A DNA stretch of 64,000 nt from Aestuariivivens sediminis. Lineage in GTDB: Bacteria; Bacteroidota; Bacteroidia; Flavobacteriales; Flavobacteriaceae. The stretch spans positions 124,001 to 188,000 of the forward strand of contig NZ_JAKMCP010000004.1 in the NCBI RefSeq assembly GCF_022662105.1, read 5' to 3'. Below the pieces are notes generated by a model. The model was not told where the DNA came from. It saw only the letters and a program-made list of their open reading frames with translations, and did not search any database. This document shows positions 6,314-30,286 of the stretch, one piece after another; position 1 is the first letter of the stretch, and each line of letters opens with the position of its first letter. Made by a program: the position numbers and the translations under genes.

Positions 6314-7582
6314 ATGGATATGACATCGTATAAAATAGCAGTAATTGGATTGGGTTATGTCGGGCTTCCCCTGGCCATAGCATTCTCAAAGAACGGATTT
6401 CAGGTGATTGGATTTGATATTGATCCCAACCGAATTGCAAACTTGAAGCAAGGCATGGATAAGACCCGGGAAGTGACTGCAGATGACTTTGCCGAAGCTA
6501 AAACCCTGAGATTTACCGGAAGTGCCAGGGATATTGCTGAGGCCGACATTTATATTGTGACGGTACCAACCCCAATAGACGCCTTTAACAGGCCGGACCT
6601 GTCCTATCTGGTTCAGGCGAGTCAATTGGTAGGCAAACACTTATCAAAGGGCAATATGGTGATCTATGAATCTACGGTTTATCCGGGTTGTACGGAGGAG
6701 GTGTGTGTGCCTGAACTTGAAAAGAGCAGCGGTCTCCGGTATAATACCGATTTTTATTGTGGCTATTCACCGGAACGCATTAACCCAGGAGATACGGTTC
6801 GAAAAGTCCATAATATTGTAAAAATCACCTCGGGGAGTACTCCTGAAACCGCGACCATAGTCGATAATCTCTACAAAAGCATTGTCACGGTCGGCACGCA
6901 TAAAACCTCGAGTATCAAAGTGGCGGAAGCGGGAAAAATTATAGAGAACATACAAAGGGATGTGAATATCTCCCTGATTAACGAATTGGCTCTGGTGTTC
7001 GATAAATTGGAGATTGATACCCTGGAGGTCCTCGAAGCGGCCGGGACGAAATGGAATTTCCTGCCTTTTAGGCCCGGTTTGGTGGGAGGACACTGTATTG
7101 GTGTGGATCCCTACTATTTAACGCATAAGTCGGAAAGCCTGGGGTATTATCCGGATGTCATTCTTTCGGGAAGACGGGTAAATGACCATATGGGGGTTCA
7201 TGTGGCGAATAAGGTGATTAAACTTTTAGTTGAAAAAGGAAGCCTCATCAAAGGGGCCAGAATATTAATTTTAGGAATGACCTTCAAGGAAAATTGCCCC
7301 GACATAAGAAACTCAAGGGTGATAGACGTGATCCGCGAATTAGAAGGGTTTGGCGCATCGGTAGCGGTTTTTGACCCGCATGCCCTGAGCACGGAGGTTC
7401 GTGAAACCTATAACATCACCCTGGAGGAGGAGCTCAGTTACGATTATGATGCCGTAGTACTGGCGGTGGGACATGACGAGTTCAAAACCATTGATTATAC
7501 GAAGTTCAGAACGACTAAGGATTGCGTGATCTACGATGTTAAAAGTATGCTTCCCAAAGCGCTGGTCACGGCTAGACTTTAA
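6314..7582 (+). CDS. UDP-N-acetylhexosamine 6-dehydrogenase (TviB/WbpO type)
   Basis: The enzyme oxidises C6 of a UDP-HexNAc twice with NAD to give the uronic acid. The N-terminal Rossmann motif is GLGYVGLPL (residues 12-20). The segment GFDIDPNRIANLKQGMDKT resembles TviB/WbpO rather than WecC. The catalytic cysteine is C261 in GGHCIGVDPYYLTHK, and KVAEAGKIIENIQRDVNI is the central helix motif. The length, 422 residues, is normal. The likely product is UDP-GlcNAcA or UDP-GalNAcA, though the exact substrate cannot be read from sequence. It may start at 6314 or at the ATG at 6320. A 604-base gene-free stretch follows. Confidence 0.88.
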   Translation: MDMTSYKIAVIGLGYVGLPLAIAFSKNGFQVIGFDIDPNRIANLKQGMDKTREVTADDFAEAKTLRFTGSARDIAEADIYIVTVPTPIDAFNRPDLSYLVQASQLVGKHLSKGNMVIYESTVYPGCTEEVCVPELEKSSGLRYNTDFYCGYSPERINPGDTVRKVHNIVKITSGSTPETATIVDNLYKSIVTVGTHKTSSIKVAEAGKIIENIQRDVNISLINELALVFDKLEIDTLEVLEAAGTKWNFLPFRPGLVGGHCIGVDPYYLTHKSESLGYYPDVILSGRRVNDHMGVHVANKVIKLLVEKGSLIKGARILILGMTFKENCPDIRNSRVIDVIRELEGFGASVAVFDPHALSTEVRETYNITLEEELSYDYDAVVLAVGHDEFKTIDYTKFRTTKDCVIYDVKSMLPKALVTARL

Positions 7583-8186: not shown

Positions 8187-8780
8187 ATGGGTTTGAGCGC
8201 TAGAGAGGTCCTCGTAAAAAGAAGCTTTGATATCGTATTATCCCTGTTAGGTTTGATGGTACTGGGTGGGGCCATGGTCGGTCTCATGGTGCTTGCGTTT
8301 TTGGATACCGGACAACACGGGATATTCAAACAACAAAGAATCGGGCAGTTTGGGAAACCATTTCACATTTATAAAATAAGGACCCTAAGGCAAACACCGG
8401 GCGGTTCCACAAAGGCCACGGCATTTGGCCGGTTTTTAAGACGTATGAAGTGGGATGAGCTGCCGCAATTGTGGAATGTGTTGAAAGGGGACATGAGTTT
8501 TGTCGGCCCCCGACCCGATATGGAAGGGTATGCCGATCGGTTAGAAGGTGAGGATCGCATGGTATTATCGGTAAAGCCCGGTATTACGGGATATGCCACC
8601 TTGCATTTTAAAGATGAAGAAGCATTGCTGTCCACACAACCGAATCCCAAACACTATAATGACACGGTACTCTGGCCCAAAAAAGTAGAATTGAATAAGG
8701 CCTATATTGCACAATATAGCTTGTATAAGGATATCGTGATTATACTTAAAACCATAGGGCTGTCATTCAGGAAACGGTAA
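8187..8780 (+). CDS. Small phosphoglycosyl transferase (PglC/bacterial sugar transferase family)
   Basis: This monotopic membrane enzyme transfers a sugar 1-phosphate from a UDP-sugar to undecaprenyl phosphate, starting a glycan repeat. The 197-residue protein consists only of the catalytic domain. It has a re-entrant hydrophobic helix at residues 14-37, a basic KIRTLR segment, KWDELPQLWNVLKGDMSFVGPRPD with the catalytic Asp-Glu pair, and KPGITGYA. It lacks the N-terminal multi-helix region of WcaJ-type enzymes. Its neighbours, an aminotransferase and a 4,6-dehydratase, fit PglC enzymes that use amino-deoxy sugars. It is one of two initiating transferases in this locus. Confidence 0.88.
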   Translation: MGLSAREVLVKRSFDIVLSLLGLMVLGGAMVGLMVLAFLDTGQHGIFKQQRIGQFGKPFHIYKIRTLRQTPGGSTKATAFGRFLRRMKWDELPQLWNVLKGDMSFVGPRPDMEGYADRLEGEDRMVLSVKPGITGYATLHFKDEEALLSTQPNPKHYNDTVLWPKKVELNKAYIAQYSLYKDIVIILKTIGLSFRKR

Positions 8781-13647: not shown

Positions 13648-14478
13648 ATGAAAAGAATATTGAAAGACGTATTGATGGATTTTCGGTTGCGTAAAAGGGC
13701 TATAATGGCATTTAATCTCCAAAATCTTTATCATCTAGAAGCTGCAAAATCGATTGCCGAAAAATTAAAAACTCCTTTAATGATTCAGTTTTCAGAAAGA
13801 TATCTCCGATTTTTAGATGAAAAATATGGAATAGAATTTTTATTGAGCACTTACTCGAACCAATTTATTTACTTCCATTTAGATCATTGTATAGATATCG
13901 AGTTTATTAAATATTGTATTAATTCTGGCTTTGATTCGGTGATGTATGATGGTTCAGCTTTTGATATCGATTCAAACATTAAAAACACTAATATTATAAT
14001 GAAACATGCTTCAAAGGTGGGATGTCTTGTTGAAGGAGAATTAGGAAAAGTATCTGGTGTTGAAGATGGTTTTGGTGACACGGGCTCGTCTTATGCAGAA
14101 ATTGAAGAAATTGAAAAATATATAAAAGAAACCAATATTCATTTAATGGCACTTGGAATTGGTAATGCTCATGGTTTTTATAATAATCTGAATGGGTTGA
14201 AAACAACTATTTTAAAGGAAGCGAGTAAGAAGTTAGACGACAACCAGTTTTATGTATTGCATGGAGGAACTGGTCTTCCTGAAAATATTATAAACGAAAC
14301 TATTGATTATGGTGTAGTTAAAATTAATGTCTCTACGGAAGTAAAAAAACACACTATGGACATATTACAGTTATATGCTACCAAGAATAAACTTTATAAT
14401 GAAATCTCTTTTAATAATTTGATGACGGAGCAGTTGTCTCAGCTTTTTGAAGAATACCTAGTTAAATATACAAAATGA
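13648..14478 (+). CDS. Class II (zinc) ketose-bisphosphate aldolase family protein
   Basis: Members of this family (FbaA, GatY, KbaY) join or split dihydroxyacetone phosphate and an aldehyde. The zinc and catalytic residues are present: HLDHC with D79 and H80, GELGKVSG with E131, GIGNAHGFY with H175, VLHGGTGLP with H205, and KINVST near residue 227. The length is 276, like GatY/KbaY. The N-terminal substrate loops differ from housekeeping enzymes, and its place in a polysaccharide operon argues against plain glycolysis or galactitol use. It is the first gene of the A+T-rich core and lies 8 bases before an FGGY kinase. The substrate is unknown; I infer a role in building a small carbohydrate for CDP activation. 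Confidence 0.82.
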   Translation: MKRILKDVLMDFRLRKRAIMAFNLQNLYHLEAAKSIAEKLKTPLMIQFSERYLRFLDEKYGIEFLLSTYSNQFIYFHLDHCIDIEFIKYCINSGFDSVMYDGSAFDIDSNIKNTNIIMKHASKVGCLVEGELGKVSGVEDGFGDTGSSYAEIEEIEKYIKETNIHLMALGIGNAHGFYNNLNGLKTTILKEASKKLDDNQFYVLHGGTGLPENIINETIDYGVVKINVSTEVKKHTMDILQLYATKNKLYNEISFNNLMTEQLSQLFEEYLVKYTK

Positions 14479-14485
14479 TTTTAGA

Positions 14486-16003
14486 ATGTATTTAGTAATA
14501 AATTTGGGGCTTAAATCTATAAGAGGTATTGTTTTTAATGAAGAAGGGAAACAATTATATACGACATCCAGGGCAGTATACTCAAACTTAATTGATCACA
14601 GGGTAGAACAAGATTCTTGGGAATGGAAAGAAAAACTTGATGCTATTTTAACAGAGATTTCATCCATTGATTATCTAAACAGCAAAATAGAATATATCAC
14701 TTCAACAACAAGCTCTTCTTGTATTTTGGGGATAGATTCTAATGGTAAACCATTAACAAAAGTAATGATGGTTTCAGACAAAAGGGCTTTTCTGGAAGCT
14801 CAGGAGATTGAAGGCATTATAAAACCTCATATAAAACAATCAAGTATAAGTTGTCCAGAATCCTCTGTTATTCCAAAGGCTTTGTGGTTTAAAAGAAATA
14901 ATCCAAACGTATTTGATAAGGTTAAATATTGGATTGGGGCAGGAGAATTTTTAAATTATTATTTTACTGGTGAAGTGTTTACAGATTCCCTAAATGCGAG
15001 TAAAGCATTATTTGAAAATGGAGAATATCTTAACCATATAATTAATGAAGTAGGTTTAGATACCAATACTCTTCCAAAAGTTAAGGACATTGGGTATCAA
15101 TTACCAATCTTAAATAAAATTAATAGAACGTTTAAATTTGCTGCCCGTTGTAAATATGTTTTAACCACCTATGATGCGATATGTGCGGTTTTGGGATCCT
15201 ATGATGGAGATAATAAAACAGCCTGTGATGTATCTGGAACAGTGACTTCAGTTAGAGTGCTTTCTGAGAATGGTCTAAACTCTAGAGAAGGCTTGATATT
15301 ATCACAGAAATTAGGAAATTATAATAAATTTCTTATCGGAGCATCAAACAATCTTGGCGGAGGGATAATCGAATGGTTAAAGCAAGCATTTTATAATGAA
15401 GCTGATAAGAATGTTTATTACATTATGGAGAATAATGCACATGAAATCTCTATGGGTGCACATGGAATCGTTTTTCTTCCATACATGCTTGGAGAACGGG
15501 CACCTTTTAAGAATGCTAATGCTAAAGGTTCTTTTTTTGGAATAAATAGAAGCAGTACAATAAAAGAATTTACCAGAGCTGTTTTTGAATCTACCGCATA
15601 TGTATCTAATGATTTGTTACACTTAATTATGACTAATGGTTTAAATATTGAGTCGATGACTGTAAGTGGTGGATTGGCGAGATTTGATTTAATTAATCAA
15701 ATTAAAGCTGATGTTACGAATAAAAGAATTAAAGTTATTGAAAATTTTGAAAGTACCTCTGTTGGAGCTCTTATACTTCTTATGGTTAATCTAAATAAGT
15801 TCTCAACAATTGAAGAAGCGGCTTCGAAAGTAATAAAAATTAGAAAAATCATAAATCCTTCTGAAGAAAATCATAAAATATACAATGAATTTTTTACGTT
15901 CTATAAGAAATTAAATGAACAATTACTTCCAATTTATAATGACCACTTCATACTAAGGAAGCAGATCCAATCATTCTCATCCGAAACCATAAGTAATTTA
16001 TGA
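14486..16003 (+). CDS. FGGY-family carbohydrate kinase
   Basis: FGGY kinases phosphorylate ketoses, polyols and glycerol. EQDSWEW at residues 41-47 is the family motif, D230 in TTYDAICAVLG sits where the catalytic base is expected, and DVSGTVTSV and SGGLARFDLINQIKAD are the later nucleotide-binding blocks. The length (505) is normal. An oddity is the N-terminal phosphate loop: relatives read DxGTxS, while here it is NLGLKS (residues 6-11), so Asp and Thr are replaced. The enzyme may be a diverged kinase. The stop overlaps the next ATG by 4 bases. The substrate cannot be assigned from sequence. Confidence 0.8.
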   Translation: MYLVINLGLKSIRGIVFNEEGKQLYTTSRAVYSNLIDHRVEQDSWEWKEKLDAILTEISSIDYLNSKIEYITSTTSSSCILGIDSNGKPLTKVMMVSDKRAFLEAQEIEGIIKPHIKQSSISCPESSVIPKALWFKRNNPNVFDKVKYWIGAGEFLNYYFTGEVFTDSLNASKALFENGEYLNHIINEVGLDTNTLPKVKDIGYQLPILNKINRTFKFAARCKYVLTTYDAICAVLGSYDGDNKTACDVSGTVTSVRVLSENGLNSREGLILSQKLGNYNKFLIGASNNLGGGIIEWLKQAFYNEADKNVYYIMENNAHEISMGAHGIVFLPYMLGERAPFKNANAKGSFFGINRSSTIKEFTRAVFESTAYVSNDLLHLIMTNGLNIESMTVSGGLARFDLINQIKADVTNKRIKVIENFESTSVGALILLMVNLNKFSTIEEAASKVIKIRKIINPSEENHKIYNEFFTFYKKLNEQLLPIYNDHFILRKQIQSFSSETISNL

Positions 16004-17097
16004 AACATTACTCTATAAAACCTAAAGTAATTGTAGCACCATTGTCTTACGAAGTTCTTAATGAGTTTAAACTTGGGAATCATATTTTAATTTTAGTTTC
16101 TAAAACAGTATTTGAAACATTTGAATTTTCCATAATTTTTGATAAATTAAAACGAAAGCAAAACCTTTATATCTATTCTCATATTCGACCCGATGCTCCG
16201 TTTGAGGATTTAGATAAAGTCATTGATGATCTTAATGGAAAGCACATAGAAAGTATTATAGCAATAGGTGGAGGGTCTGTAATAGATGCCGCAAAAACGT
16301 TATCGGTGGCCTTCGAGGGGGTAAGCTATAAAGATGTATTTTATAATAAAGCGCTCATGCCCAACAAGAAAATTAAAGTTATTGCTGTTCCTACAACAGC
16401 AGGGACTGGGGCAGAATTATCTTTTGGAGCAATAATTTATGATAATCAGAATTTAATTAAAGGAGGTCTCAGAGGAGAAATTATTCAGCCCAATGGTGTA
16501 ATAATTGATGCTAAACTTCACAATGCATGTCCACCCAAGCTTAAAGCTGAGGTTGGATTTGATTGTCTTACACACGCCATAGAAACTTATATATCTAAAA
16601 AGACCAATCCTTTGGCAAAAATTCAATCAATTAGTTGTATTGAAAATATTTTTAAATATTTAACCCTCGCATGTAAAGATAACGATGAATGTGCCATGGA
16701 AAAAATAGCAATTTCATCTGCTTTAATGGGAATAAATTTAGCCTATAGCTCTACTTGTTTGCCACATAGAATCCAATATGTTATTGGTCCTTTAACAGGA
16801 ACAAGTCATGCCCAAGGATTAATTGCCTTATACAAAGGTTGGCTAAAACATTTGGCAGACTCAAGATTAACAGAGTTAAAGGACTTGGTTAATGATCTAG
16901 GAATGAATATTAACCAGTTTCTAAAAAAGATTCAATCCCTAAAGGACAGTCTGGATATAAACTACACAATTACTGATTTGGGTATCCATCAAAATCAAAT
17001 TGATGAGATTTCAAAAAATGTGACTGGTAATGTCAGCGCAGATCCATCCTATCGAGATGTCGGAACTATTAAAAAGATTTTAACTAATTCATTATAA
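16000..17097 (+). CDS. Iron-dependent alcohol dehydrogenase family protein
   Basis: This family reduces aldehydes or ketones (or oxidises alcohols) with NAD(P)H; FucO and 1,3-propanediol dehydrogenase are examples. GGGSVIDAAKTL begins at residue 90, and PTTAGTGAE follows near 131. The four metal ligands fit exactly: D188, H192, H256 and H270, with the same 4 and 14 residue spacings as FucO. The length (365) is normal. It overlaps the kinase gene by 4 bases (ATGA) and ends 1 base before the cytidylyltransferase, so the four genes are translated together. I infer that it reduces a carbonyl of the compound made by the aldolase. Confidence 0.85.
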   Translation: MKHYSIKPKVIVAPLSYEVLNEFKLGNHILILVSKTVFETFEFSIIFDKLKRKQNLYIYSHIRPDAPFEDLDKVIDDLNGKHIESIIAIGGGSVIDAAKTLSVAFEGVSYKDVFYNKALMPNKKIKVIAVPTTAGTGAELSFGAIIYDNQNLIKGGLRGEIIQPNGVIIDAKLHNACPPKLKAEVGFDCLTHAIETYISKKTNPLAKIQSISCIENIFKYLTLACKDNDECAMEKIAISSALMGINLAYSSTCLPHRIQYVIGPLTGTSHAQGLIALYKGWLKHLADSRLTELKDLVNDLGMNINQFLKKIQSLKDSLDINYTITDLGIHQNQIDEISKNVTGNVSADPSYRDVGTIKKILTNSL

Positions 17098-17098
17098 T

Positions 17099-17821
17099 AT
17101 GATTGGAGTTGTTTTAGCCGCAGGAAAAGGAAGTCGATTAGGAAATTATACCACCAACCTCCCTAAAAGTTTATTGCCCTTGGATGATGATGGGTACACG
17201 TTATTGGATTATAACATTGATATCTTAAATCAATTACATTTAAAAAAAATAATTGTAGTTACGGGTTTTAAAAGTTATAAAATTGAGAATCATATTTCAA
17301 ATTACAACAATATTGAGCTGGTGTATAATCCCTTTTGGAACCATTGTAATGTACTCGGGTCCTTATATATGGCATTAAATAAAATAGATGATGATTTTTT
17401 ATTTTTACATGCAGATACTTTGGCTGAAAAATCGATATGGGAAAAATTGGTCAAATCTAAAGGAGACATGGTACTTCCGTTTGAACGTAAACAATGTGGC
17501 GAAGAGGAGATGAAAATAAAGTTAAGAGAGAAAAAGGTGATCCAAATTACGAAGGAAATGAAATCAGAACATGCAGATGGAGAGTTCTTGGGGATTGCAA
17601 AATTCAAAAAATCAACTATTCCATTTTTCAAATACACTGCAGAAAGGTTGTTTAAAAAGGGTGATTTAAATCATTACATGGAATCCGTAATTTCTGAGGC
17701 TATCAAAACAGATAAATATACTATCTGTGCGTTGGATATTGTAGATTCTAATTTTGTCGAAGTAGACTTTGAGGAAGATTATATCAAGGCAAAATCCAAA
17801 TTCGGTAGAATTGCACCATAA
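17099..17821 (+). CDS. LicC-like CTP:phosphoalcohol cytidylyltransferase
   Basis: The protein is a single nucleotidyltransferase domain of 240 residues. VVLAAGKGSRLG (residues 4-15) and LPKSLLPL form the nucleotide-binding part. NPFWNHCNVLGSLYMA and FLFLHADTLAEKSI are typical of the phosphocholine cytidylyltransferase (LicC) family, not of the sugar-1-phosphate thymidylyltransferases. These enzymes make CDP-choline or other CDP-alcohols. No choline uptake or choline kinase gene is nearby; instead the aldolase, kinase and dehydrogenase precede it. A non-choline alcohol phosphate is therefore a reasonable substrate, but that is inference. Confidence 0.8.
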   Translation: MIGVVLAAGKGSRLGNYTTNLPKSLLPLDDDGYTLLDYNIDILNQLHLKKIIVVTGFKSYKIENHISNYNNIELVYNPFWNHCNVLGSLYMALNKIDDDFLFLHADTLAEKSIWEKLVKSKGDMVLPFERKQCGEEEMKIKLREKKVIQITKEMKSEHADGEFLGIAKFKKSTIPFFKYTAERLFKKGDLNHYMESVISEAIKTDKYTICALDIVDSNFVEVDFEEDYIKAKSKFGRIAP

Positions 17822-17860
17822 TACAAACCAGTTTTTTTTCAATTATCCATTTGTTCATCT

Positions 17861-19120
17861 ATGCCAAAATATGGAATAAAAAGGCCTAAAGTTTCAAAAG
17901 ATAAAAAAGCACTTTTATCTAATTTTTTTTCATTATCCATTTTACAGGGGATGAATATGCTTTTGCCACTTGTAACCTTACCCTATTTGGTCCGTGTGTT
18001 GGGTGTTGAAATATTTGGGCTGGTGAATTTTGCGCTGTCCATTATTATGTATTTTAATATTATAGTGAGTTTTGGTTTTGAATTATCTGCTACAAGAGAA
18101 GTTTCTATCCATAGAGAGGACCCAAAGAAGATTTCTGAGATCTTTTCATCGGTAATGTTTATTAAACTGTGTTTGCTTTTTTTGTCTTTTTTAACGCTCT
18201 CTTTTCTCATTTTGACAATAGATACTCTTCAAAGTAATGCCTTGTTATATTATGCGACTTTTGGTGTGGTTATAGGTAACTATATTTTCCCGACATGGTT
18301 ATTCCAAGGCATGGAAAAGATGAAGTATATTACTTATGTCAATGTGTTCTCAAAAATCTTTTTTACCATTTTGATATTTGCTGTTATAAAAAACCCGTCA
18401 GATTACATTTATGTACCAGTTTTAAACGCCCTGGGAATTATTATAGGGGCGAGTTATGCATTTTGGCTGTCATTTAAGTTATTTTCATTAAGGTTGGTCA
18501 TCCCTAAAACATCAACCATCTCTTATGAACTTAAAGATAGTTTTCAATTTTTTTTGTCAAGAGTCGCCAATAATGGTAGCAGATATTTCGCAACAACAAT
18601 AATTGGCTTATATTTTGGAAATTTGATCGTTGGTTACTATACCATGGTTGAAAAACTATTTTACGCCTTTATGAGCCTTGGTTCTGTGGTTTCACAAACG
18701 ATTTATCCTTATATGTCTAGGACCCGAAACATTACATTTTTAAAAAAGGTGTTGGTTACAATAACTGGAATATCATTAATACTTATAATTCCTTTACTCT
18801 ATTTTAATCAGGAATTACTACAAATTGTTTTTGATGAATATAATGAGATGTTATCCTTATTTTTTGTAATTGTTTTTAGCGGAGCTATTTTTGCCGTGAT
18901 AAGTACAATTTTAGGATATCCATTATTGGCAGCATATGGACATATTAAGTATGCAAACAATAGCCTTATTTACGCTTCCATTATTTATATGTTATATACT
19001 GTGATTGCAGTGTTTGTAACGAAAGATATTTATATTGTTGTCTTTGCTATTCCAGTATATATGGTAACGGGTTTAGGATTTAGAATATATTATGTGTTTA
19101 AAACGAAATTAATGAATTAA
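17861..19120 (+). CDS. Wzx-type polysaccharide flippase
   Basis: This 419-residue protein has about twelve hydrophobic segments and the RfbX/MATE-like start (NFFSLSILQGMNMLLPLVTLPYLVRVLG, described here by its position at residues 22-49). Such proteins flip undecaprenyl-diphosphate-linked repeat units across the inner membrane. It sits between the cytidylyltransferase and licD-like genes. The A+T-rich composition matches its neighbours. Specificity cannot be read from sequence. Confidence 0.9.
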   Translation: MPKYGIKRPKVSKDKKALLSNFFSLSILQGMNMLLPLVTLPYLVRVLGVEIFGLVNFALSIIMYFNIIVSFGFELSATREVSIHREDPKKISEIFSSVMFIKLCLLFLSFLTLSFLILTIDTLQSNALLYYATFGVVIGNYIFPTWLFQGMEKMKYITYVNVFSKIFFTILIFAVIKNPSDYIYVPVLNALGIIIGASYAFWLSFKLFSLRLVIPKTSTISYELKDSFQFFLSRVANNGSRYFATTIIGLYFGNLIVGYYTMVEKLFYAFMSLGSVVSQTIYPYMSRTRNITFLKKVLVTITGISLILIIPLLYFNQELLQIVFDEYNEMLSLFFVIVFSGAIFAVISTILGYPLLAAYGHIKYANNSLIYASIIYMLYTVIAVFVTKDIYIVVFAIPVYMVTGLGFRIYYVFKTKLMN

Positions 19121-19128
19121 AAGGAGGT

Positions 19129-19785
19129 ATGCTAAAAGAGATAATTACAAAAAAAGGAGTTATAACATACACTGAGGCTACACCAATTTCCGGAACAAAG
19201 CGATTAAATTTAGAGGTGGCAAAACAAAATTTATTGGAGTTAAAGGCCCTCCTAGATAAGCATAAGATAAAATTTGGACTTATTTATGGTACGTTGTTAG
19301 GGGCCATTAGAGAAGGAAACTTTATCAAGCATGATGAGGATATCGATTTATCCATGTTAGATGAGCATAAAGAAGATCTTTTGGACGTTTTGCCAGAAAT
19401 TATAGATATTGGCTTTAGAATCATTCGATACAATGACAAATTGTTAAGTATTGAAAGAAACGATGAATATATTGACTTTTATTTTTTTAGAAAGACTCAC
19501 TCATCTTACAGAAAATGTGACTTAGGGCTCAAGGCAAAATCCACCTATTTAGAAAACACCAAAAGCTATAAGTTCTTAGGAGAGGATTTTCAAATTCCTG
19601 TTGAAGCCGAAAAATTTCTAAAGGAGTTGTATGGAAAAGACTGGAAGATTCCTGTAAGGGATGTGGCAGCGCTAGATTTTAACACCTACATTATATTTAG
19701 GGAAACCATAAGGGAAAAACTTCCTTTTTTGTTTTTAGTTTTAAGTAAATTGAAAAGTTTCTTAAGAAAAACCAGCCTAAATTAA
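19129..19785 (+). CDS. LicD-family phosphotransferase
   Basis: LicD proteins and the related fukutin/FKRP enzymes move a phosphorylated alcohol (phosphocholine, ribitol phosphate) from its CDP form onto a sugar hydroxyl. The family signature is clear: LIYGTLLGAIREGNF at residues 51-65, then KHDEDIDLSM (67-76) with the metal-binding acidic cluster. The C-terminus holds the FLKELYGKDWKIP block. The length (218) is a little short, but the core is intact. It lies in the same operon as the LicC-like enzyme, so the two probably form an activation and transfer pair. AAGGAGGT touches the ATG with almost no spacing, so it is not a normal ribosome site. Confidence 0.85.
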   Translation: MLKEIITKKGVITYTEATPISGTKRLNLEVAKQNLLELKALLDKHKIKFGLIYGTLLGAIREGNFIKHDEDIDLSMLDEHKEDLLDVLPEIIDIGFRIIRYNDKLLSIERNDEYIDFYFFRKTHSSYRKCDLGLKAKSTYLENTKSYKFLGEDFQIPVEAEKFLKELYGKDWKIPVRDVAALDFNTYIIFRETIREKLPFLFLVLSKLKSFLRKTSLN

Positions 19786-19864: not shown

Positions 19865-21100
19865 ATGGTTATAGCTGAGCAAAAATTATTAAAATGGGGA
19901 TTGGTATTGAATGCCATCTATGTTTTATTATTCTTTTTAATAAGACCTGATGGTATAAATATTGTAAAAATATCCATCACCACATTATTATTATTCTCTG
20001 TACTTATTATTTGTTCCTTATCCATTAAAAACATATATCGACTCAAAGAAATTCCTCAATTTTCAAGATTTTTGTTCTATATGTTATTGATTTGGGGGGG
20101 TATAACTATAGTTAGAAGTTTTTCCTTCTCTATTCAAGATTGGGTCACAAATTTTGGAAATGTGTATATGGGTTTAGCTTGGATAGCGCCATTGGCAATG
20201 GTTTTGGGCCTCAAATTAGAAAATTGGAATATAGTTTTCAAGGTCATCTTCTTTGTTTTTAAGCTAATGATTCCTGTTTTTGGAATTTCCTTACTTTTTA
20301 ATACTAGTTATTTGCAATGGGCCTGGTTACTTCGGTCGGTTAACCTAATTTTATTGCTAGGGCTTAGCCGTATTTCATTGATAAAAAAGGGCATTGTTTT
20401 AGTAATTATTGGTATATATATACTGGTAGCAATATCTGTAAAACAACGAATGGACCTACTGTTTTTGTCATTAACCATGGGTTTTCTGATTATGGATAAA
20501 TTAATTGGAATAAAAATACGCCGTGTTTTTTTAAAGTATATTATTAGTTTTTTTATTTTGGTTTTAATTCTTGTGTTTACTGTGGGCTATGAATTTGTTT
20601 CAAATACCATCTCCAGTATTATAGATTTTCAGGACTCTAGAACATTCCTTTTTTATGAGTTATTTAATGAGTTAAACCTAATCGAAAAATGGATTGGCAG
20701 GGGTTCATTAGGCACTTATTACAGTCATTTTTTTGAGCATACTAAATGGTATACTATTAATATATTAAAAAAACCCTGGTGGGGTGATTCTTCTGTTCGA
20801 ATCACCATTGAAGTTGGTTACCTACAAATGATATTGAAAGGAGGTATGTTGCTATTTTTATTGAATACATTGATATACATCAATGCTATATATTTGGCGC
20901 TTTTTAAATCTAGCAATAAATTCGTGAAACGATTGGGGTATTATATTTTAGTTATAACGTTACTAAGTCTGGTGTCATTAAGACCAACATTTGCTCCAAC
21001 CTTTATTTTTTTATGGATGGCCATCGGTACCGTTTTACCAAAAAAGTATAGGTTAATGAAAGATGATGAAATATATTCAGTAGTAAAACAATTAAGATGA
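19865..21100 (+). CDS. Multi-pass membrane protein, candidate Wzy polymerase
   Basis: The 411-residue protein has about ten to twelve hydrophobic segments and a larger extracytoplasmic loop around residues 255-315 (ending near VRITIEVGYLQMILKGG). This layout is that of O-antigen polymerases, which join flipped repeat units in the periplasm. Wzy proteins are poorly conserved, so the assignment rests on topology and on its place between LicD and GT2 genes. Its 3' end overlaps the GT2 start by 4 bases. The gene at 24233 is another candidate for the same role. Confidence 0.65.
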   Translation: MVIAEQKLLKWGLVLNAIYVLLFFLIRPDGINIVKISITTLLLFSVLIICSLSIKNIYRLKEIPQFSRFLFYMLLIWGGITIVRSFSFSIQDWVTNFGNVYMGLAWIAPLAMVLGLKLENWNIVFKVIFFVFKLMIPVFGISLLFNTSYLQWAWLLRSVNLILLLGLSRISLIKKGIVLVIIGIYILVAISVKQRMDLLFLSLTMGFLIMDKLIGIKIRRVFLKYIISFFILVLILVFTVGYEFVSNTISSIIDFQDSRTFLFYELFNELNLIEKWIGRGSLGTYYSHFFEHTKWYTINILKKPWWGDSSVRITIEVGYLQMILKGGMLLFLLNTLIYINAIYLALFKSSNKFVKRLGYYILVITLLSLVSLRPTFAPTFIFLWMAIGTVLPKKYRLMKDDEIYSVVKQLR

Positions 21101-22372: not shown

Positions 22373-23500
22373 ATGTTGAAATCAAAAAGAATCCTATTTG
22401 TTTTACATTTTTCACCTCCGGTTCATGGTGCTTCCAAGGTTGGAGATACAATTGTTAATAGTCAATTAATCAAGAATAACCTTAACTCAAAATTTGTAAA
22501 AATAAAGTCATCGGATAATCTGCAGGAAATAGGGACATTAAAAGTCAAAAAGCTTTGGTATACAATAGCCTTGTTATTTAAAGTAGTTTATCAATTGTTC
22601 GTTTTTAGGCCTCAGAGCATCTATTTGACGGCATCACCACAGGGCTTTGCCTTTTATAGGGATCTTATAGTTTCTATACCAATCAAGGTTTTTTGCATAT
22701 TTAAGAGTTGTACTGTTTTTTATCATTATCATGCCAAGGGGATAGATGAATTTGTATCTAAATCTTTAATCTCTAAAAATTTAACTAACTTTTTTATAAA
22801 TAACACATGTCTTATTTTTATTAATGAAAAAATGCTTAATGAAGTAAAAAAGTTAAATAGCTATAAAAAGATTTTTATTTTAAATAATGGTGTTCCAGAT
22901 CCTTTAAAGGAAGAAAGTTTTAAAGAACTGGTTAAAAAAAGAAGCCAAACAGATCAAATTCATGTGTTATATCTTTCTAATATGATGAAATCCAAAGGAT
23001 ATGACATAGTCTTAAATTTAGCCAAATGGGTAAATGAACAGAATATAACTAACATTAAATTCCACTTTGCAGGGAGCTGGCATTCAAAAAAGGACATGGA
23101 ATTTTTTAATAGTTTTCGAGCCAAACATGATTTGTGGGGTAGAGTTGAATACCATGGGTTGGTAGATGGAAGTAAAAAAATGAAACTATTTAGGCAAGCA
23201 AATGTCTTTGTTTTTCCTTCTCGATATAAAAAAGAGGTCTTTCCTCTATCGGTATTGGAGGCTTTGTCATATGGGCTACCCGTTTTAGCGTTTAATGCTG
23301 GAGCAGTTGCAGATATTGTTAACCCTACTGTAGGTATTATTTCCAATGAAGACAATGTATTTAAGGATTTCAAATGTATAATGGAAAAATTCTTAAATGA
23401 AAGTTCTTATTACCAGTGCAGGAATTTGTTTTTAAGTAAATATACAGTTGAGAGCTTTGAAAAAAATTTGGTAAAAATATTAAATGAGGATTCCTTATGA
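22373..23500 (+). CDS. Glycosyltransferase family 4 (GT-B)
   Basis: This retaining GT-B glycosyltransferase starts with LFVLHFSPPVHGASKVG, a form of the GT4 N-terminal glycine-rich loop. The C-terminal nucleotide-sugar site FVFPSRYKKEVFPLSVLEAL with the E-x7-E pattern is followed by SYGLPVLAF. The length is about 375 residues. I chose the ATG at 22373 over the TTG just before it. The next gene overlaps its end by 4 bases. Confidence 0.88.
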   Translation: MLKSKRILFVLHFSPPVHGASKVGDTIVNSQLIKNNLNSKFVKIKSSDNLQEIGTLKVKKLWYTIALLFKVVYQLFVFRPQSIYLTASPQGFAFYRDLIVSIPIKVFCIFKSCTVFYHYHAKGIDEFVSKSLISKNLTNFFINNTCLIFINEKMLNEVKKLNSYKKIFILNNGVPDPLKEESFKELVKKRSQTDQIHVLYLSNMMKSKGYDIVLNLAKWVNEQNITNIKFHFAGSWHSKKDMEFFNSFRAKHDLWGRVEYHGLVDGSKKMKLFRQANVFVFPSRYKKEVFPLSVLEALSYGLPVLAFNAGAVADIVNPTVGIISNEDNVFKDFKCIMEKFLNESSYYQCRNLFLSKYTVESFEKNLVKILNEDSL

Positions 23501-24225
23501 AAACGTTTGCCCATAATAATTATCGGATTTATGGAGACCATATTAAATTAATTGGAAATATAAAGAATAAGACCATTATCAATACAATTAATGCTCATTC
23601 CTACATTGTTGCCAAATCAGATAAGACGTTTAGAAAAGCTCTAGAGGAAAGTAATATCTTACTGCCTGATGGCGAAGGGATTGTTTTATTAGCAAAATGG
23701 ATATATAACATGAAAATAAAAAAAATAGCCGGAGCAGATATCCATTCGCATTTACTTGATCTTGCAAATTCCAAAAGTTTAAAATGCTTTTACCTGGGGG
23801 CAAGTCAAACCACCTTAGATAGTATAAAAATAAAACAGGAAGTTAAATATCCCAATATTACATTTGGTTTTTTTTCACCTCCATTTAAAGAGGAATTTAA
23901 TGGAGGGGATAATAAAAAAATGCTGGCTAGGATTAATTCTTTTATGCCTGATATATTATTTGTAGGGATGACGGCTCCTAAACAGGAAAAGTGGGTACAC
24001 CAAAATAAAGAAAACATAGATGCTAAGATTATTTGTTCTATAGGAGCGGTTTTCGATTTTGTGGCTGAAACTAAAAAAAGGGCACCCAGTTGGACCATTG
24101 TATGTAAAATGGAGTGGTTGTACAGAAGCTTTACGGCTTGGCGATTAACTAAACGTTATATGTATTCGACACCTTTATTTCTATTGGAAGTTTTTAAGCT
24201 CAAATTAAAGGGGAATAAATTTTAA
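23497..24225 (+). CDS. WecG/TagA/CpsF family glycosyltransferase (GT26)
   Basis: GT26 enzymes add the second sugar, often ManNAc or ManNAcA, to undecaprenyl-diphosphate-HexNAc. LPDGEGIVLLAKW with the catalytic Asp, KIAGADIHSHLLDLA, FYLGASQTTLDS, VGMTAPKQEKWVHQN and SIGAVFDFVAETKKRAPSW are the family blocks in order. The length (242) is normal. Together with wecB at 31443 it suggests that a ManNAc-type residue may follow the first sugar. Confidence 0.92.
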   Translation: MKTFAHNNYRIYGDHIKLIGNIKNKTIINTINAHSYIVAKSDKTFRKALEESNILLPDGEGIVLLAKWIYNMKIKKIAGADIHSHLLDLANSKSLKCFYLGASQTTLDSIKIKQEVKYPNITFGFFSPPFKEEFNGGDNKKMLARINSFMPDILFVGMTAPKQEKWVHQNKENIDAKIICSIGAVFDFVAETKKRAPSWTIVCKMEWLYRSFTAWRLTKRYMYSTPLFLLEVFKLKLKGNKF

Positions 24226-25369: not shown

Positions 25370-26304
25370 TGAAAGTCGCCCTATACATATCCATCATTTT
25401 GGTCTTTACGAAAGTCGCCTGTCAGGAGGTCATCTTAAATACCGGTTTTACCGTCAGAGATTTTGACATTATTGATAACACGTTATTGTATATTGAAAAA
25501 AGGGACATTAAAAATTATAATCTAATCACAAAAACCCATGACACCCTTATCGATACCAATGGGTATTTTATTGGAGGATACGGTCTGAAATTATTTTGTG
25601 ACTATAAAAATCAAAACATCATAACGGCATCCAATGAACTGATTAGGGATATCGGTTCTATTCGGTTTTATGATGTTCCAAAAAAGGAAATAAATCTATA
25701 CCATGTCTATTACACGACCGAATTAATGGATTTTTTTTTAGACCCTCAGGACAGTCTCTTTTTTTTAAGCAAAAAAGACAAACAGATAGATATGTTTAAA
25801 TATGGAGGTGTCCCCAGATACCATAAGATTGATTCGTTAAAGTTGAACCGTTATTCCAGAAAGATAAATTATAGCAAGGGGAATTTGTATTATATAACCG
25901 ATTATGGAGAAGTATGTAATTATAATTTGAAGACGCGTAGAAATAAAAGAATATACAAAGGCGAGTCCCTATTAGTTAACTTTACATCGGACAACAAATA
26001 TAAAAATATATATGTAACCACATTTGATGGTAAATTAATAAAGGTTAATATTGATGGAGATTTTCCAGCTCAGACCATAGGTATAGGAAAGGATATTGTA
26101 GAGGCTATAGCTATGTATAAGGATAAGTATATCTTGACAGGAGATTGGAAGGGAATCATAAAACTTATTGATTTGCAAACGTTGTCCCCGGTTAAGCAGT
26201 GGCACAACAAACAAAGAATTGTAAAAATTGTGGTAAATGATGATTATTTTTACACCAGTAGTTCAGACAGAACCATAAAAAGATGGAAAATAGAACAAAA
26301 ATGA
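25369..26304 (+). CDS. Secreted WD40-like beta-propeller protein of unknown function
   Basis: A signal-peptide-like start (residues 1-18, up to ACQ) is followed by about 290 residues of repeated short beta-strand blocks. The last blocks read [19 protein letters not shown] and [15 protein letters not shown], close to WD40 repeats. I do not recognise a specific family. It lies inside the polysaccharide operon, coupled on both sides (TAATG with the ligase-like gene, ATGA with ugd). That suggests a periplasmic or surface role in glycan assembly or a protein interaction, but the function is unknown. Confidence 0.6.
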
Positions 26305-27698
26305 AAATCTCATCCATATGTTGTATCGGTGCCGGTTATGTAGGCGGGCCAACCATGGCGGTCATTGCCCAAAAATGCCCACAGATAAAGGTCACCGTGG
26401 TCGATGTGAATGCTTCGAGAATAGACGCCTGGAATGCGGCCGACTTGAGTAAGTTACCCGTTTTTGAACCCGGTTTGGACAAGGTTGTGGCTGAGGCCAG
26501 GGGTAGGAATCTTTTTTTCTCAACCGACATCGATGAAGCCATCCATGAGGCGGACATGATCTTTATTTCCGTCAATACGCCTACAAAAACGTATGGTAAG
26601 GGTAAAGGCATGGCAGCGGATCTAAAATACATTGAACGCTGTGCACGCCAAATTGCCAGGGTGGCTAAACAGGATAAAATTATTGTGGAGAAATCCACCT
26701 TACCGGTACGAACCGCAGAGGCCATAAAAAGTATTCTCGATAACACCGGCAATGGCCCTCAGTTTCAAATCCTATCCAATCCGGAGTTTTTGGCCGAGGG
26801 GACGGCAGTCCAGGACTTATTATTCCCGGATCGGGTACTCATTGGCGGGGAATCTTCCGAAGAAGGAAAGCAAGCCATTCAGGCCTTGGTCGCCATCTAT
26901 GCCCATTGGGTACCCCGGGAGCGCATATTAACCACGAACGTGTGGTCCTCGGAGCTATCAAAACTCACCGCTAATGCCTTTTTGGCACAACGCGTCTCCT
27001 CTATCAATGCCATGTCTGAAATTTGCGAAAAAACAGGCGCTGATATTGATGAGGTGGCACAAGCTATTGGGATGGATAGTCGTATTGGACCTAAATTCTT
27101 GAAAGCCTCAGTAGGATTTGGAGGCTCCTGTTTTCAAAAGGACATCTTAAACCTAGTGTATATTGCCAAAACCTATGGCCTCCATGAAGTGGCCCAATAT
27201 TGGGAACAGGTCATCAAAATAAACGATTATCAAAAAAATCGATTTTCGGAAAAGATCGTCAATACCTTATACAATACGGTTTCCGGAAAGAAAATCACCT
27301 TTTTAGGATGGGCCTTTAAAAGGGATACTAACGATACCCGGGAATCCCCAGCCATCCAGGTGGCTGATAACCTGATTAGTGAACAGGCCAAATTGGGGGT
27401 CTATGACCCTAAAGTTTCTCCAGAACGCATGTATACCGATTTGGATCATTTAAATACAAGAAGTGAACAGGAGAACAGAGCCGCCGTACAGGTATATACG
27501 TCCCCTTATGACGCCTGCCATGGGGCCCATGCCATAGCTGTATTAACCGAATGGGAAGAGTTTAAATCCTACGATTGGCAACGTATTTATGAGAGCATGC
27601 CAAAACCCGCTTTTGTGTTCGACGGTCGTGGCATACTGGATACAACGGCCTTAAGGGCAATTGGATTTGTCTGTTACACCATAGGTAAGGGATCCTAA
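26301..27698 (+). CDS. ugd: UDP-glucose 6-dehydrogenase (long, eukaryote-like form)
   Basis: The enzyme oxidises UDP-glucose to UDP-glucuronate with two [20 protein letters not shown] is the Rossmann loop, [13 protein letters not shown] and [13 protein letters not shown] are central blocks, and the catalytic Cys is C277 in [13 protein letters not shown]. The 465-residue length and the GGPT form resemble animal and plant UGDH rather than the shorter bacterial Ugd. I chose the ATG at 26301, which overlaps the previous stop as ATGA. The ATG at 26283 adds only six atypical residues. Base composition rises here compared with the genes before it. Confidence 0.94.
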
Positions 27699-28936: not shown

Positions 28937-30286
28937 GTGAGTTATAAAAAAAGCAGATATTCGAGTTTAATCAAACCCTTAACGGGATTGGTGGATTTTT
29001 GCATTCTCATTGCCAGTGTATTTCTTTTTGAAATCAATTTAACCTCCCCTTATGTATTCATTACTTATTTAGCCATTGGATGGTTCATAATTGCAATAAA
29101 AAACAATTTTTACGAAATTCAACGGCATACGCGAATCATCCAGGTCATTCCCTTATTATTTCGTCAGTTTTTGGTTTTTGGGATTATCCTGTATGCCTAT
29201 ATCGGGGTTTTTAGGCAGCCAAACATAAGTCGCTTGGCCTTGGCCAAATACCTCATACTGGTCTTTGTATTGATTTTTACCTTCAAAATGGTTGTGTTTT
29301 TATTAATGCGAAAATATAGAGCTGTACTGAAAGGAAATTCGAGAAACGTTATTGTAATAGGGAATAATGAAAAAACCCGGCAACTCATAAAGACCATTAG
29401 AACGCGATTGGATTATGGGTATAACTTCAAACACCAGTTTACTATTGAGGACAATACGTCTTTAAAGGAATGCTTTAATTATGTTATTGAAAATAATATA
29501 GATGAAATTTATTTTTCGGTGGCCGAATTGTCGAATAAGCAAATAAATAGCTTAGTAGATTTTGCCGATAATAACCTCAGGGAATTAAAGTTCATCCCCG
29601 ATAATAAGGACATATTTTCCAAGCGATTGAAATATGAATATTACGATTATATTCCGGTATTGTCCATTAGGGCCATTCCATTACAAGAGCCTATCAACAA
29701 GTTTTTAAAACGCCTGTTTGACATTGGGTTCTCCCTATTCATTATCCTTTTCATTTTATCCTGGTTAACTCCAATTTTAGCGATAATCATTAAATTGGAA
29801 TCTAAAGGCCCTGTATTCTTTAAACAATCCAGAAACGGATTTAATTATGAGGAATTTGATTGTTATAAGTTTAGATCCATGACGCCTAATGAAGACGCGC
29901 ATCTGTACCAGGCCACGCGAGGGGATCAACGCGTCACTAAAGTTGGCGGGTTTATCCGAAAAACGAGTATTGATGAATTGCCTCAGTTTTTTAATGTGTT
30001 GTTTGGGGAGATGTCTGTGGTGGGACCTCGGCCCCATATGGTGAGTCATACCGATATGTATGCCCAGCGCATTGACAAGTTTATGGTGAGACACTTTGTG
30101 AAACCGGGTATTACCGGGTTGGCCCAGGTGAGTGGCTTTCGGGGTGAGATTGAAAAGGAAAAAGACATCATCAATCGCGTGAAATACGATATCTTCTATA
30201 TCGAAAACTGGTCCTTGCTGTTAGATCTGAAAATTATTTTTCAAACTTTTACCAATGCCATTAAAGGCGAGGATAAGGCCTACTAA
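28937..30286 (+). CDS. WcaJ-type undecaprenyl-phosphate sugar-1-phosphate transferase
   Basis: This is the large form of the initiating phosphoglycosyl transferases. Four hydrophobic helices lie in residues 10-130, a CoA-binding-like Rossmann region (VIVIGNNEKTRQLIK) follows near residue 137, then a further helix and the catalytic domain with KQSRNGFNYEEFDCYKFRSM, TSIDELPQFFNVLFGEMSVV, GPRPHM and KPGITGLAQV. The usual substrate is UDP-glucose or UDP-galactose. Translation starts at a GTG one base after the UXS gene. Its 3' end overlaps by 4 bases the converging GT4 gene. Confidence 0.92.
   Translation: MSYKKSRYSSLIKPLTGLVDFCILIASVFLFEINLTSPYVFITYLAIGWFIIAIKNNFYEIQRHTRIIQVIPLLFRQFLVFGIILYAYIGVFRQPNISRLALAKYLILVFVLIFTFKMVVFLLMRKYRAVLKGNSRNVIVIGNNEKTRQLIKTIRTRLDYGYNFKHQFTIEDNTSLKECFNYVIENNIDEIYFSVAELSNKQINSLVDFADNNLRELKFIPDNKDIFSKRLKYEYYDYIPVLSIRAIPLQEPINKFLKRLFDIGFSLFIILFILSWLTPILAIIIKLESKGPVFFKQSRNGFNYEEFDCYKFRSMTPNEDAHLYQATRGDQRVTKVGGFIRKTSIDELPQFFNVLFGEMSVVGPRPHMVSHTDMYAQRIDKFMVRHFVKPGITGLAQVSGFRGEIEKEKDIINRVKYDIFYIENWSLLLDLKIIFQTFTNAIKGEDKAY

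Follow-up and report, generated by a model that had tools for sequence, protein, structure and literature searches.

What would a surface-polysaccharide locus make with an aldolase, a sugar kinase and an alcohol dehydrogenase encoded directly ahead of a cytidylyltransferase? The question is raised by a 64,000-nucleotide stretch of the 3.93-Mb genome of the flavobacterium Aestuariivivens sediminis (contig NZ_JAKMCP010000004.1, positions 124,001 to 188,000; this whole stretch is the window hereafter), in which positions 13648-19785 carry six genes on the + strand. Judging from the genes and their relatives, the first four of these, referred to below as the cassette, quite probably constitute a dedicated pathway to a cytidine diphosphate (CDP)-activated alcohol that feeds a phosphodiester transferase acting on the polysaccharide. 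The main support came from the identity of the genes, their tight spacing, the joint conservation of all four, the exchange of the transferase that follows them, and the catalytic positions retained in the aldolase, the dehydrogenase and the cytidylyltransferase; the substrates, the direction of the aldolase reaction, the phosphorylated carbon and the product we infer. The six open reading frames lie where an earlier reading made from the DNA letters alone (the sequence-only reading) had placed them, and Pfam searches confirmed their families. They are listed here with the next gene, given for context:

13648-14478, + strand: class II (FBA/TBPA-family) aldolase (PF01116, 4.8e-63)
14486-16003, + strand: FGGY carbohydrate kinase (PF00370/PF02782; FGGY_C 5.6e-27, FGGY_N 3.7e-20)
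16000-17097, + strand: iron-containing alcohol dehydrogenase, FucO/PsrA-like (PF00465 Fe-ADH 7e-29; PF25137 ADH_Fe_C 2.9e-22)
17099-17821, + strand: LicC/PntC-like cytidylyltransferase (NTP_transf_3 1.3e-15; matches to 6pd1 and 1jyk)
17861-19120, + strand: Wzx-type flippase (PF01943 Polysacc_synt 4.5e-52)
19129-19785, + strand: LicD-family phosphotransferase (PF04991 7.6e-13)
19865-21100, + strand: Wzy-like membrane protein (no Pfam family; membrane character read by eye)

The four enzyme genes are separated by 7, -4 and 1 bases, followed by 39 bases before wzx and 8 between wzx and licD; the sequence-only reading had given 8 for the first spacer and the measured values for the other two. The order aldolase, kinase, dehydrogenase, cytidylyltransferase, directly 5' of wzx, was found in four loci, namely the window, L015 (genome G505, of the same genus as the source), L011 (Winogradskyella ursingii) and L016 (genome G369, of the same family), and the common order extends through wzx and a transferase gene to a wzy-like gene. 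Across these loci the cassette spacers range from -4 to 8 bases, and pairwise identities are 62–80% for the aldolase, 68–81% for the kinase, 59–76% for the dehydrogenase and 65–79% for the cytidylyltransferase (62–80% and 71–81% for the aldolase and kinase orthologues measured against the window copies). The relatives were recovered by a contig scan with the aldolase (L011) and by searching whole genomes with dehydrogenase profiles at E ≤ 1e-60 (G505 and G369), and every one of them carried the cytidylyltransferase although none had been found with it as the query. Because the same four genes occur in the same order in three other genomes, the cluster is not a product of chance.

The cassette was rare and patchy in the genome samples searched, as a mobile module would be. 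At E ≤ 1e-60 the dehydrogenase profile matched 3 of 397 genomes of the family (the source included), 1 of 395 of the class (the source only) and 3 of 198 relatives (the same three), and the kinase profile matched only the source genome among 395 of the phylum; the samples for family, class, relatives and phylum overlap. A close cytidylyltransferase was present in two of the four genomes of the source genus, with a distant one in one more, and in 1 of 36 genomes of the genus of G369, with distant ones in two. The single-query contig scan with the aldolase found one locus and missed the two found by whole-genome search, so that absence in that scan means little. Outside these genomes, the kinase gave no match in plasmids at 1e-40 and none in 174 stretches of viral contigs, the aldolase matched seven plasmid records at about 32% identity, and the dehydrogenase matched 1630 plasmid records, all below 60%. 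Aldolase homologues of 31–34% identity occurred in 8 of 296 phylum genomes, and their loci of about 3.7 kb held no other cassette protein at 1e-5.

The gene that follows wzx encodes a LicD-family protein in the window and L015 (72% identical) and a CDP-glycerol-type PF04464 protein in L011 and L016 (59% identical), and alignments between the two kinds gave negative scores. In all four loci the transferase gene sits one gene away from that of the activating enzyme, across wzx (two with LicD and two with PF04464, compared at the family level). The flippase gene comes directly after the cassette in all four, and by sequence its product belongs to a different lineage in L011 and L016: Wzx identity is 79% between the window and L015, 64% between L011 and L016, and 35–38% between the pairs (the window copy shares 37% with L011 and 35% with L016). 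The corresponding values for the wzy-like gene are 73%, 53% and 24–29%. The four enzymes stay together and travel as one module, while the genes that follow are exchanged. The sequence-only reading had named five families, LicD among them, to be sought together in related loci; the four enzymes were present at every locus, and PF04464 stood in the place of LicD at two.

What the two transferase families have in common is indicated by a capsule system described in the available portion of PMC11666461, in which Cps7A (PF04464) is a glycerol-3-phosphate transferase and Cps7C belongs to a LicD-family group that uses CDP conjugates, a CDP-polyol donor being ascribed to it. Structurally, the LicD-family protein Mf1, which was characterised as a phosphocholine transferase, comes closest to the ribitol-phosphate transferase FKRP, according to PMC11982090. 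Cps7A and Cps7C thus suggest that the PF04464 and LicD families share CDP-polyol donors, and since the cassette occurs with either kind, it would most simply supply a CDP-polyol. The proposal of the sequence-only reading, a CDP-alcohol pathway feeding a phosphodiester transferase, is therefore supported by the conservation of the four genes and by the families of the transferases.

The best solved relatives of the cytidylyltransferase by profile were PntC (6pd1, 2.2e-13) and LicC (1jyk, 1.9e-11), and the top fold matches of its AlphaFold model (mean predicted local distance difference test score, pLDDT, 84.9) were 6pd2 (24% identity) and 1jyk (21% identity). By this likeness the protein is predicted to be a cytidylyltransferase, of the LicC type at the level of family and fold. 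The accessible text of PMC6697681 places PntC Glu104 and Glu196, and the equivalent LicC Asp105 and Asp192, near the substrate amine, and describes an aromatic box in LicC. Our alignment to 1jyk was read with an offset of 20 to the numbering in that text, an offset that fits Glu216, Asp192, Asp105 and Arg129. In the cassette protein, H104 and E195 stand at the places of PntC Glu104 and Glu196, E221 at that of the metal-ligand Glu216, and R130 at that of Arg129. LicC W136 (chain position 156 in 1jyk) aligned with E137, and W191 with M194, so that the aromatic box for choline does not appear to be kept; W136 we take to be a choline-binding residue. All six cassette residues (H104, E137, M194, E195, E221 and R130) are invariant in the four copies. 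At this low identity, the replacements in the pocket appear to speak against choline, in agreement with the doubt about choline already voiced in the sequence-only reading.

Distant relatives of the cytidylyltransferase were seen in other surroundings. The one in L024 adjoins a PF04464 gene and a LicD gene, that in L025 does so by eye, and that in L023 has a PF04464 neighbour without LicD, again by eye; in these genomes of the same genus or family the LicC-like gene is paired with a PF04464-type protein (L023 5721-7451, L024 3642-7352, L025 43-3756). A TagD-like PF01467 cytidylyltransferase gene is also present in L024 (in L025 by eye), so that cytidylyltransferases of two types are found there next to transferases of two types. 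Distant cytidylyltransferases occurred in 36 plasmid records, and the five loci examined held no other cassette enzyme at 1e-4: one (L028) adjoins an annotated CDP-glycerol glycerophosphotransferase gene, one (L030) lies about 5 kb from a phosphoenolpyruvate (PEP) mutase gene, one is beside a CDP-alcohol phosphatidyltransferase gene, and two had no annotation. L030 (1-8645, on a Rhizobium leguminosarum plasmid) is annotated with PEP mutase, phosphonopyruvate decarboxylase, a TauD-like oxygenase, the LicC-like gene and asnB, and is a possible phosphonate cluster.

In the aldolase, residues D79, H80, H175, H205, G206, T208, N227 and T230 are invariant in the four copies and aligned with those of E. 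coli FbaA, KbaY and YdjI; we take D79 to be catalytic, the three histidines to be metal ligands, and the others to form the side that holds dihydroxyacetone phosphate (DHAP). The DPR motif, which supplies the arginine that holds the distal phosphate, lies at the aligned place in KbaY and in a neighbouring insertion in FbaA; in all four cassette copies the sequence at that place is LYNEIS, which lacks Arg. In the loop that corresponds to that of FbaA Ser61, the cassette copies carry two invariant arginines, R51 and R54. Because the DHAP side is kept, the DPR arginine is missing and R51/R54 are present, the enzyme probably acts on a ketose-1-phosphate, or else on a bisphosphate whose second phosphate is placed elsewhere. 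YdjI of the E. coli ydj cluster, annotated as octuluronate-1-phosphate aldolase, belongs to the same aldolase family and likewise has no DPR motif, but it carries arginines directly beside the place of the motif, one of them a single alignment column away, and is therefore a weak precedent. The AlphaFold model of the cassette aldolase (mean pLDDT 81.8, below 50 at 137-148 and at 173-177, which includes H175) matched FBA, TBPA, SqiA and YdjI structures about equally. A bisphosphate aldolase of the glycolytic type was also considered and set low, the DPR motif being missing and all 20 matched NCBIfam models scoring below cut-off (the nearest at 177 versus 216 bits).

The kinase carries Asn6 in place of the Asp of the first motif in all four copies, a change that the sequence-only reading had not foreseen. 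Asp was found at this position in all five E. coli FGGY kinases, and 27 of the 30 FGGY loci compared within the family also have it, the other three being unreadable by the script; these 30 were the top PF00370 scorers and look like glycerol kinases, which makes them a biased control. The catalytic-base Asp, D230, is invariant in the four copies and aligned with an Asp of all five E. coli kinases. None of the NCBIfam equivalogs that it matched comes close to the kinase, the best being XylB with 184 bits versus a cut-off of 380. A housekeeping xylulokinase was considered and rejected: the genome has three FGGY matches, those listed being the cassette gene and one on contig C7, and this second gene adjoins one that by eye resembles a xylose isomerase gene. 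In the dehydrogenase, the ligand positions D188, H192, H256 and H270 are invariant in the four copies and aligned with FucO (three of the copies were used in this alignment). Its best NCBIfam models, all far below their cut-offs, were AdhE-type, ErcA, PsrA (125 of 424 bits) and FucO, and the choline dehydrogenase model gave 114 of 550 bits. Iron dehydrogenases of the FucO/PsrA type mostly reduce aldehydes rather than ketoses.

We suggest that a ketose and its 1-phosphate would be the substrates of the kinase and the aldolase, which would yield DHAP and a short aldehyde; the iron dehydrogenase would reduce this aldehyde to an alcohol. The LicC/PntC-like enzyme may then couple the phosphate ester of this alcohol to cytidine monophosphate (CMP), giving a CDP-alcohol, and the transferase specific to each locus (LicD or PF04464) would place the alcohol on a polysaccharide unit as a phosphodiester. 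The final phosphate would come from the kinase acting on the alcohol, or from a ketose that is already phosphorylated. Such splitting followed by reduction seems about as likely as, or somewhat likelier than, the route put forward in the sequence-only reading, in which a carbon skeleton would be assembled from DHAP, reduced and phosphorylated, because the kinase, aldolase and dehydrogenase equal the fucose trio of E. coli (FucK, FucA and FucO), which likewise consists of a kinase of the FGGY family, a DHAP aldolase and an iron dehydrogenase and has no cytidylyltransferase. The E. coli trio is catabolic: it splits a ketose-1-phosphate into DHAP and an aldehyde, and the latter is reduced to a diol. 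FucA belongs to an aldolase family different from that of the class II cassette enzyme.

With somewhat less than even confidence, we consider that the product may be a CDP-alcohol new to any organism, such as CDP-ethylene glycol, which to our knowledge has not been found in any. In that case a pentulose phosphate would be phosphorylated at position 1, and the aldolase, with R51/R54 and no DPR arginine, would split it into DHAP and glycolaldehyde phosphate. Glycolaldehyde phosphate corresponds to phosphonoacetaldehyde as its ester analogue; its reduction by the PsrA-like dehydrogenase would give 2-hydroxyethyl phosphate, which the PntC-like enzyme would activate. A four-carbon or deoxy polyol made by the same route would be equally new.

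Several observations weigh against a CDP-alcohol pathway of this kind. If the aldolase releases an unphosphorylated aldehyde, the cytidylyltransferase would depend for its phosphate on a hypothetical later kinase step or on a ketose hypothetically phosphorylated beforehand, and Asn6 might mean that the kinase has weak activity or none. R51 and R54 could bind a phosphate that is differently placed, and YdjI, the DPR-less precedent, has arginines directly beside the motif place where the cassette aldolase has none. The best Pfam stretch of LicD covers only positions 3-57 of a 227-position model, and the only NCBIfam match of the window LicD was the model of the cholinephosphotransferase Mf1 (5e-19, 69 bits versus a cut-off of 225). 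With four loci known, the conservation rests on few events. Matches to the choline-kinase family PF01633 were obtained at E ≤ 0.001 in three of the four cassette genomes, W. ursingii having none. The one in G369 is above the cut-off (34 bits) and not on the cassette contig, G369 being the only one of the four genomes with such a match; one of the two in G505 (22 bits, cut-off 29) lies inside the cassette's own locus and counts, though weakly, against a CDP-polyol. This G505 match lies in the C-terminal part of a 728-residue protein (L015 1747-3933), preceded by a part that by eye resembles thymidylate kinase. In the window genome the single PF01633 match is on another contig (C12) and below the curated cut-off, which bears out the statement of the sequence-only reading that no choline kinase is near.

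A first alternative keeps the CDP-alcohol and reverses the aldolase: DHAP and a small aldehyde would be joined into a ketose-1-phosphate, reduction at C2 would give an alditol-1-phosphate, and this would be activated to a CDP-alditol, the kinase supplying a phosphorylated precursor. The residues of the DHAP side are kept, the product would reach the cytidylyltransferase already phosphorylated, and PF04464 partners act on polyols, all of which this route accommodates. It would, however, set an enzyme of the FucO/PsrA type to a ketose and leave the kinase without an obvious task, and we regard it as rather unlikely.

Improbable, to our judgement, is a variant of CDP-glycerol linked through glycerol-2- or sn-1-phosphate, for which dihydroxyacetone or glyceraldehyde would be reduced to glycerol, phosphorylated at an unusual position by the FGGY kinase and activated. 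Glycerol kinases do belong to the FGGY family; glycerol-3-phosphate transferases of PF04464 and a LicD-family user of a CDP-polyol are known (PMC11666461, in the part available), and the literature cites a pneumococcal CDP-2-glycerol pathway, as judged from the title of a reference. However, glycerol needs no aldolase, and free dihydroxyacetone is an unlikely product of an enzyme that keeps the phosphate side for DHAP, if the residue roles assigned above are right. These two alternatives differ from the preferred route only in its inner steps, and both are compatible with the CDP-alcohol core.

Far less likely is an ordinary phosphocholine or phosphonate decoration (2-aminoethylphosphonate, AEP, or 2-hydroxyethylphosphonate, HEP) with unrelated sugar-metabolism genes alongside. 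The cytidylyltransferase is indeed nearest to LicC and PntC, the matches of LicD to a cholinephosphotransferase and of the dehydrogenase to PsrA and choline dehydrogenase point the same way, all far below cut-off, and choline-kinase-family matches exist in three of the four genomes, including the one below cut-off in the G505 locus. Against this, PEP mutase (TIGR02320) had no match in any of the four cassette genomes at E ≤ 0.001, a choline-kinase match above cut-off was present in one of the four, on another contig, the positions of the choline pocket are changed, and the four genes are conserved together, in two loci with a PF04464 partner. A mobile sugar-catabolic trio that precedes wzx by chance is the least likely of all, for although its enzymes fall into the same three classes as FucK, FucA and FucO of E. 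coli, the four genes include no transporter or isomerase, and the cytidylyltransferase and a polysaccharide locus accompany the trio in all four cases.

The genes flanking the cassette identify the region as a surface-polysaccharide locus. On the 5' side are genes for a PF02397 initiating sugar transferase, a DegT-family aminotransferase, a PseB-type dehydratase (TIGR03589) and Gmd (TIGR01472), the last two above cut-off, and a GDP-fucose-synthase-like protein (462 bits versus a cut-off of 500). The 3' side encodes glycosyltransferases, a hexapeptide-repeat transferase, a protein of the WecG/TagA family, a Wzy_C protein, two enzymes for nucleotide sugars and another PF02397 protein. The two PF02397 genes bracket the locus (8187-8780 and 28937-30286), one encoding a short protein and the other a protein with a CoA-binding domain; genes of the UDP-sugar dehydrogenase type lie at both ends (6314-7582 and 26283-27698), and a WecG/TagA/CpsF-family glycosyltransferase gene is at 23497-24225. 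The guanine-plus-cytosine content is 0.287–0.333 over 14–26 kb, from the cassette through the glycosyltransferases, 0.425–0.514 at 5–12 kb and 0.415–0.443 at 26–29 kb on the flanks, and transitional at 12–14 kb (0.36–0.38) and 29–30 kb (0.35). Stretches with so low a content typically mark imported variable regions, and this may be one. Scans for promoters and terminators found sites no commoner than in shuffled sequences (43 versus 43.3 and 8 versus 10.5).

Compared with known systems, the cassette resembles the Lic pathway (LicA, LicC, LicD; CDP-choline) in combining a LicC-fold cytidylyltransferase with a LicD-family transferase in one surface-glycan locus. It differs in that it seems to make the alcohol phosphate by means of the aldolase, the FGGY kinase and the iron dehydrogenase, in that the window genome has no choline-kinase gene near it, in that the choline pocket is not kept, and in that PF04464 replaces LicD in two loci. 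With the Pnt pathway (PEP mutase, PntC; CMP-AEP), as far as the text of PMC6697681 was available, it shares its nearest solved relative, PntC, and the Glu at the Glu196 place; unlike that pathway, it has His at the Glu104 place and no PEP mutase in any cassette genome. Known CDP-glycerol and CDP-ribitol systems draw their polyol phosphate from glycerol-3-phosphate or pentose phosphates. Capsule systems of this type, on the partial text of PMC11666461, likewise combine a CDP-polyol donor with transferases of the PF04464 and LicD families, and what the cassette adds to them is a dedicated aldolase and FGGY kinase. Full-text literature searches aimed at this gene set, with most subscription journals outside their coverage, found no described system among the matches listed, and neither did searches on neighbouring questions among theirs; the sequence-only reading had likewise known of none. 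Phosphodiester-linked residues are reported for the lipopolysaccharide core of Arenibacter certesii, a marine relative classified there in the Cytophaga-Flavobacterium-Bacteroides group, in the available part of PMC3210612.

Taken together, the cassette probably adds to the known systems of CDP-polyol decoration, what is new being the dedicated set of enzymes. The CDP-alcohol routes for surface glycans that we know of draw on existing pools of choline, ethanolamine, glycerol or ribitol phosphate. If the pathway proposed here is true, these bacteria would instead make a CDP-activated alcohol for their surface glycans by a route of its own, encoded in a compact cassette used with two unrelated transferase families; a novel substituent of glycans could come from it, as well as a CDP-alcohol useful in enzymatic synthesis. 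The exchange of LicD for PF04464 beside the same cassette would then be a natural experiment that points to the class of the donor.

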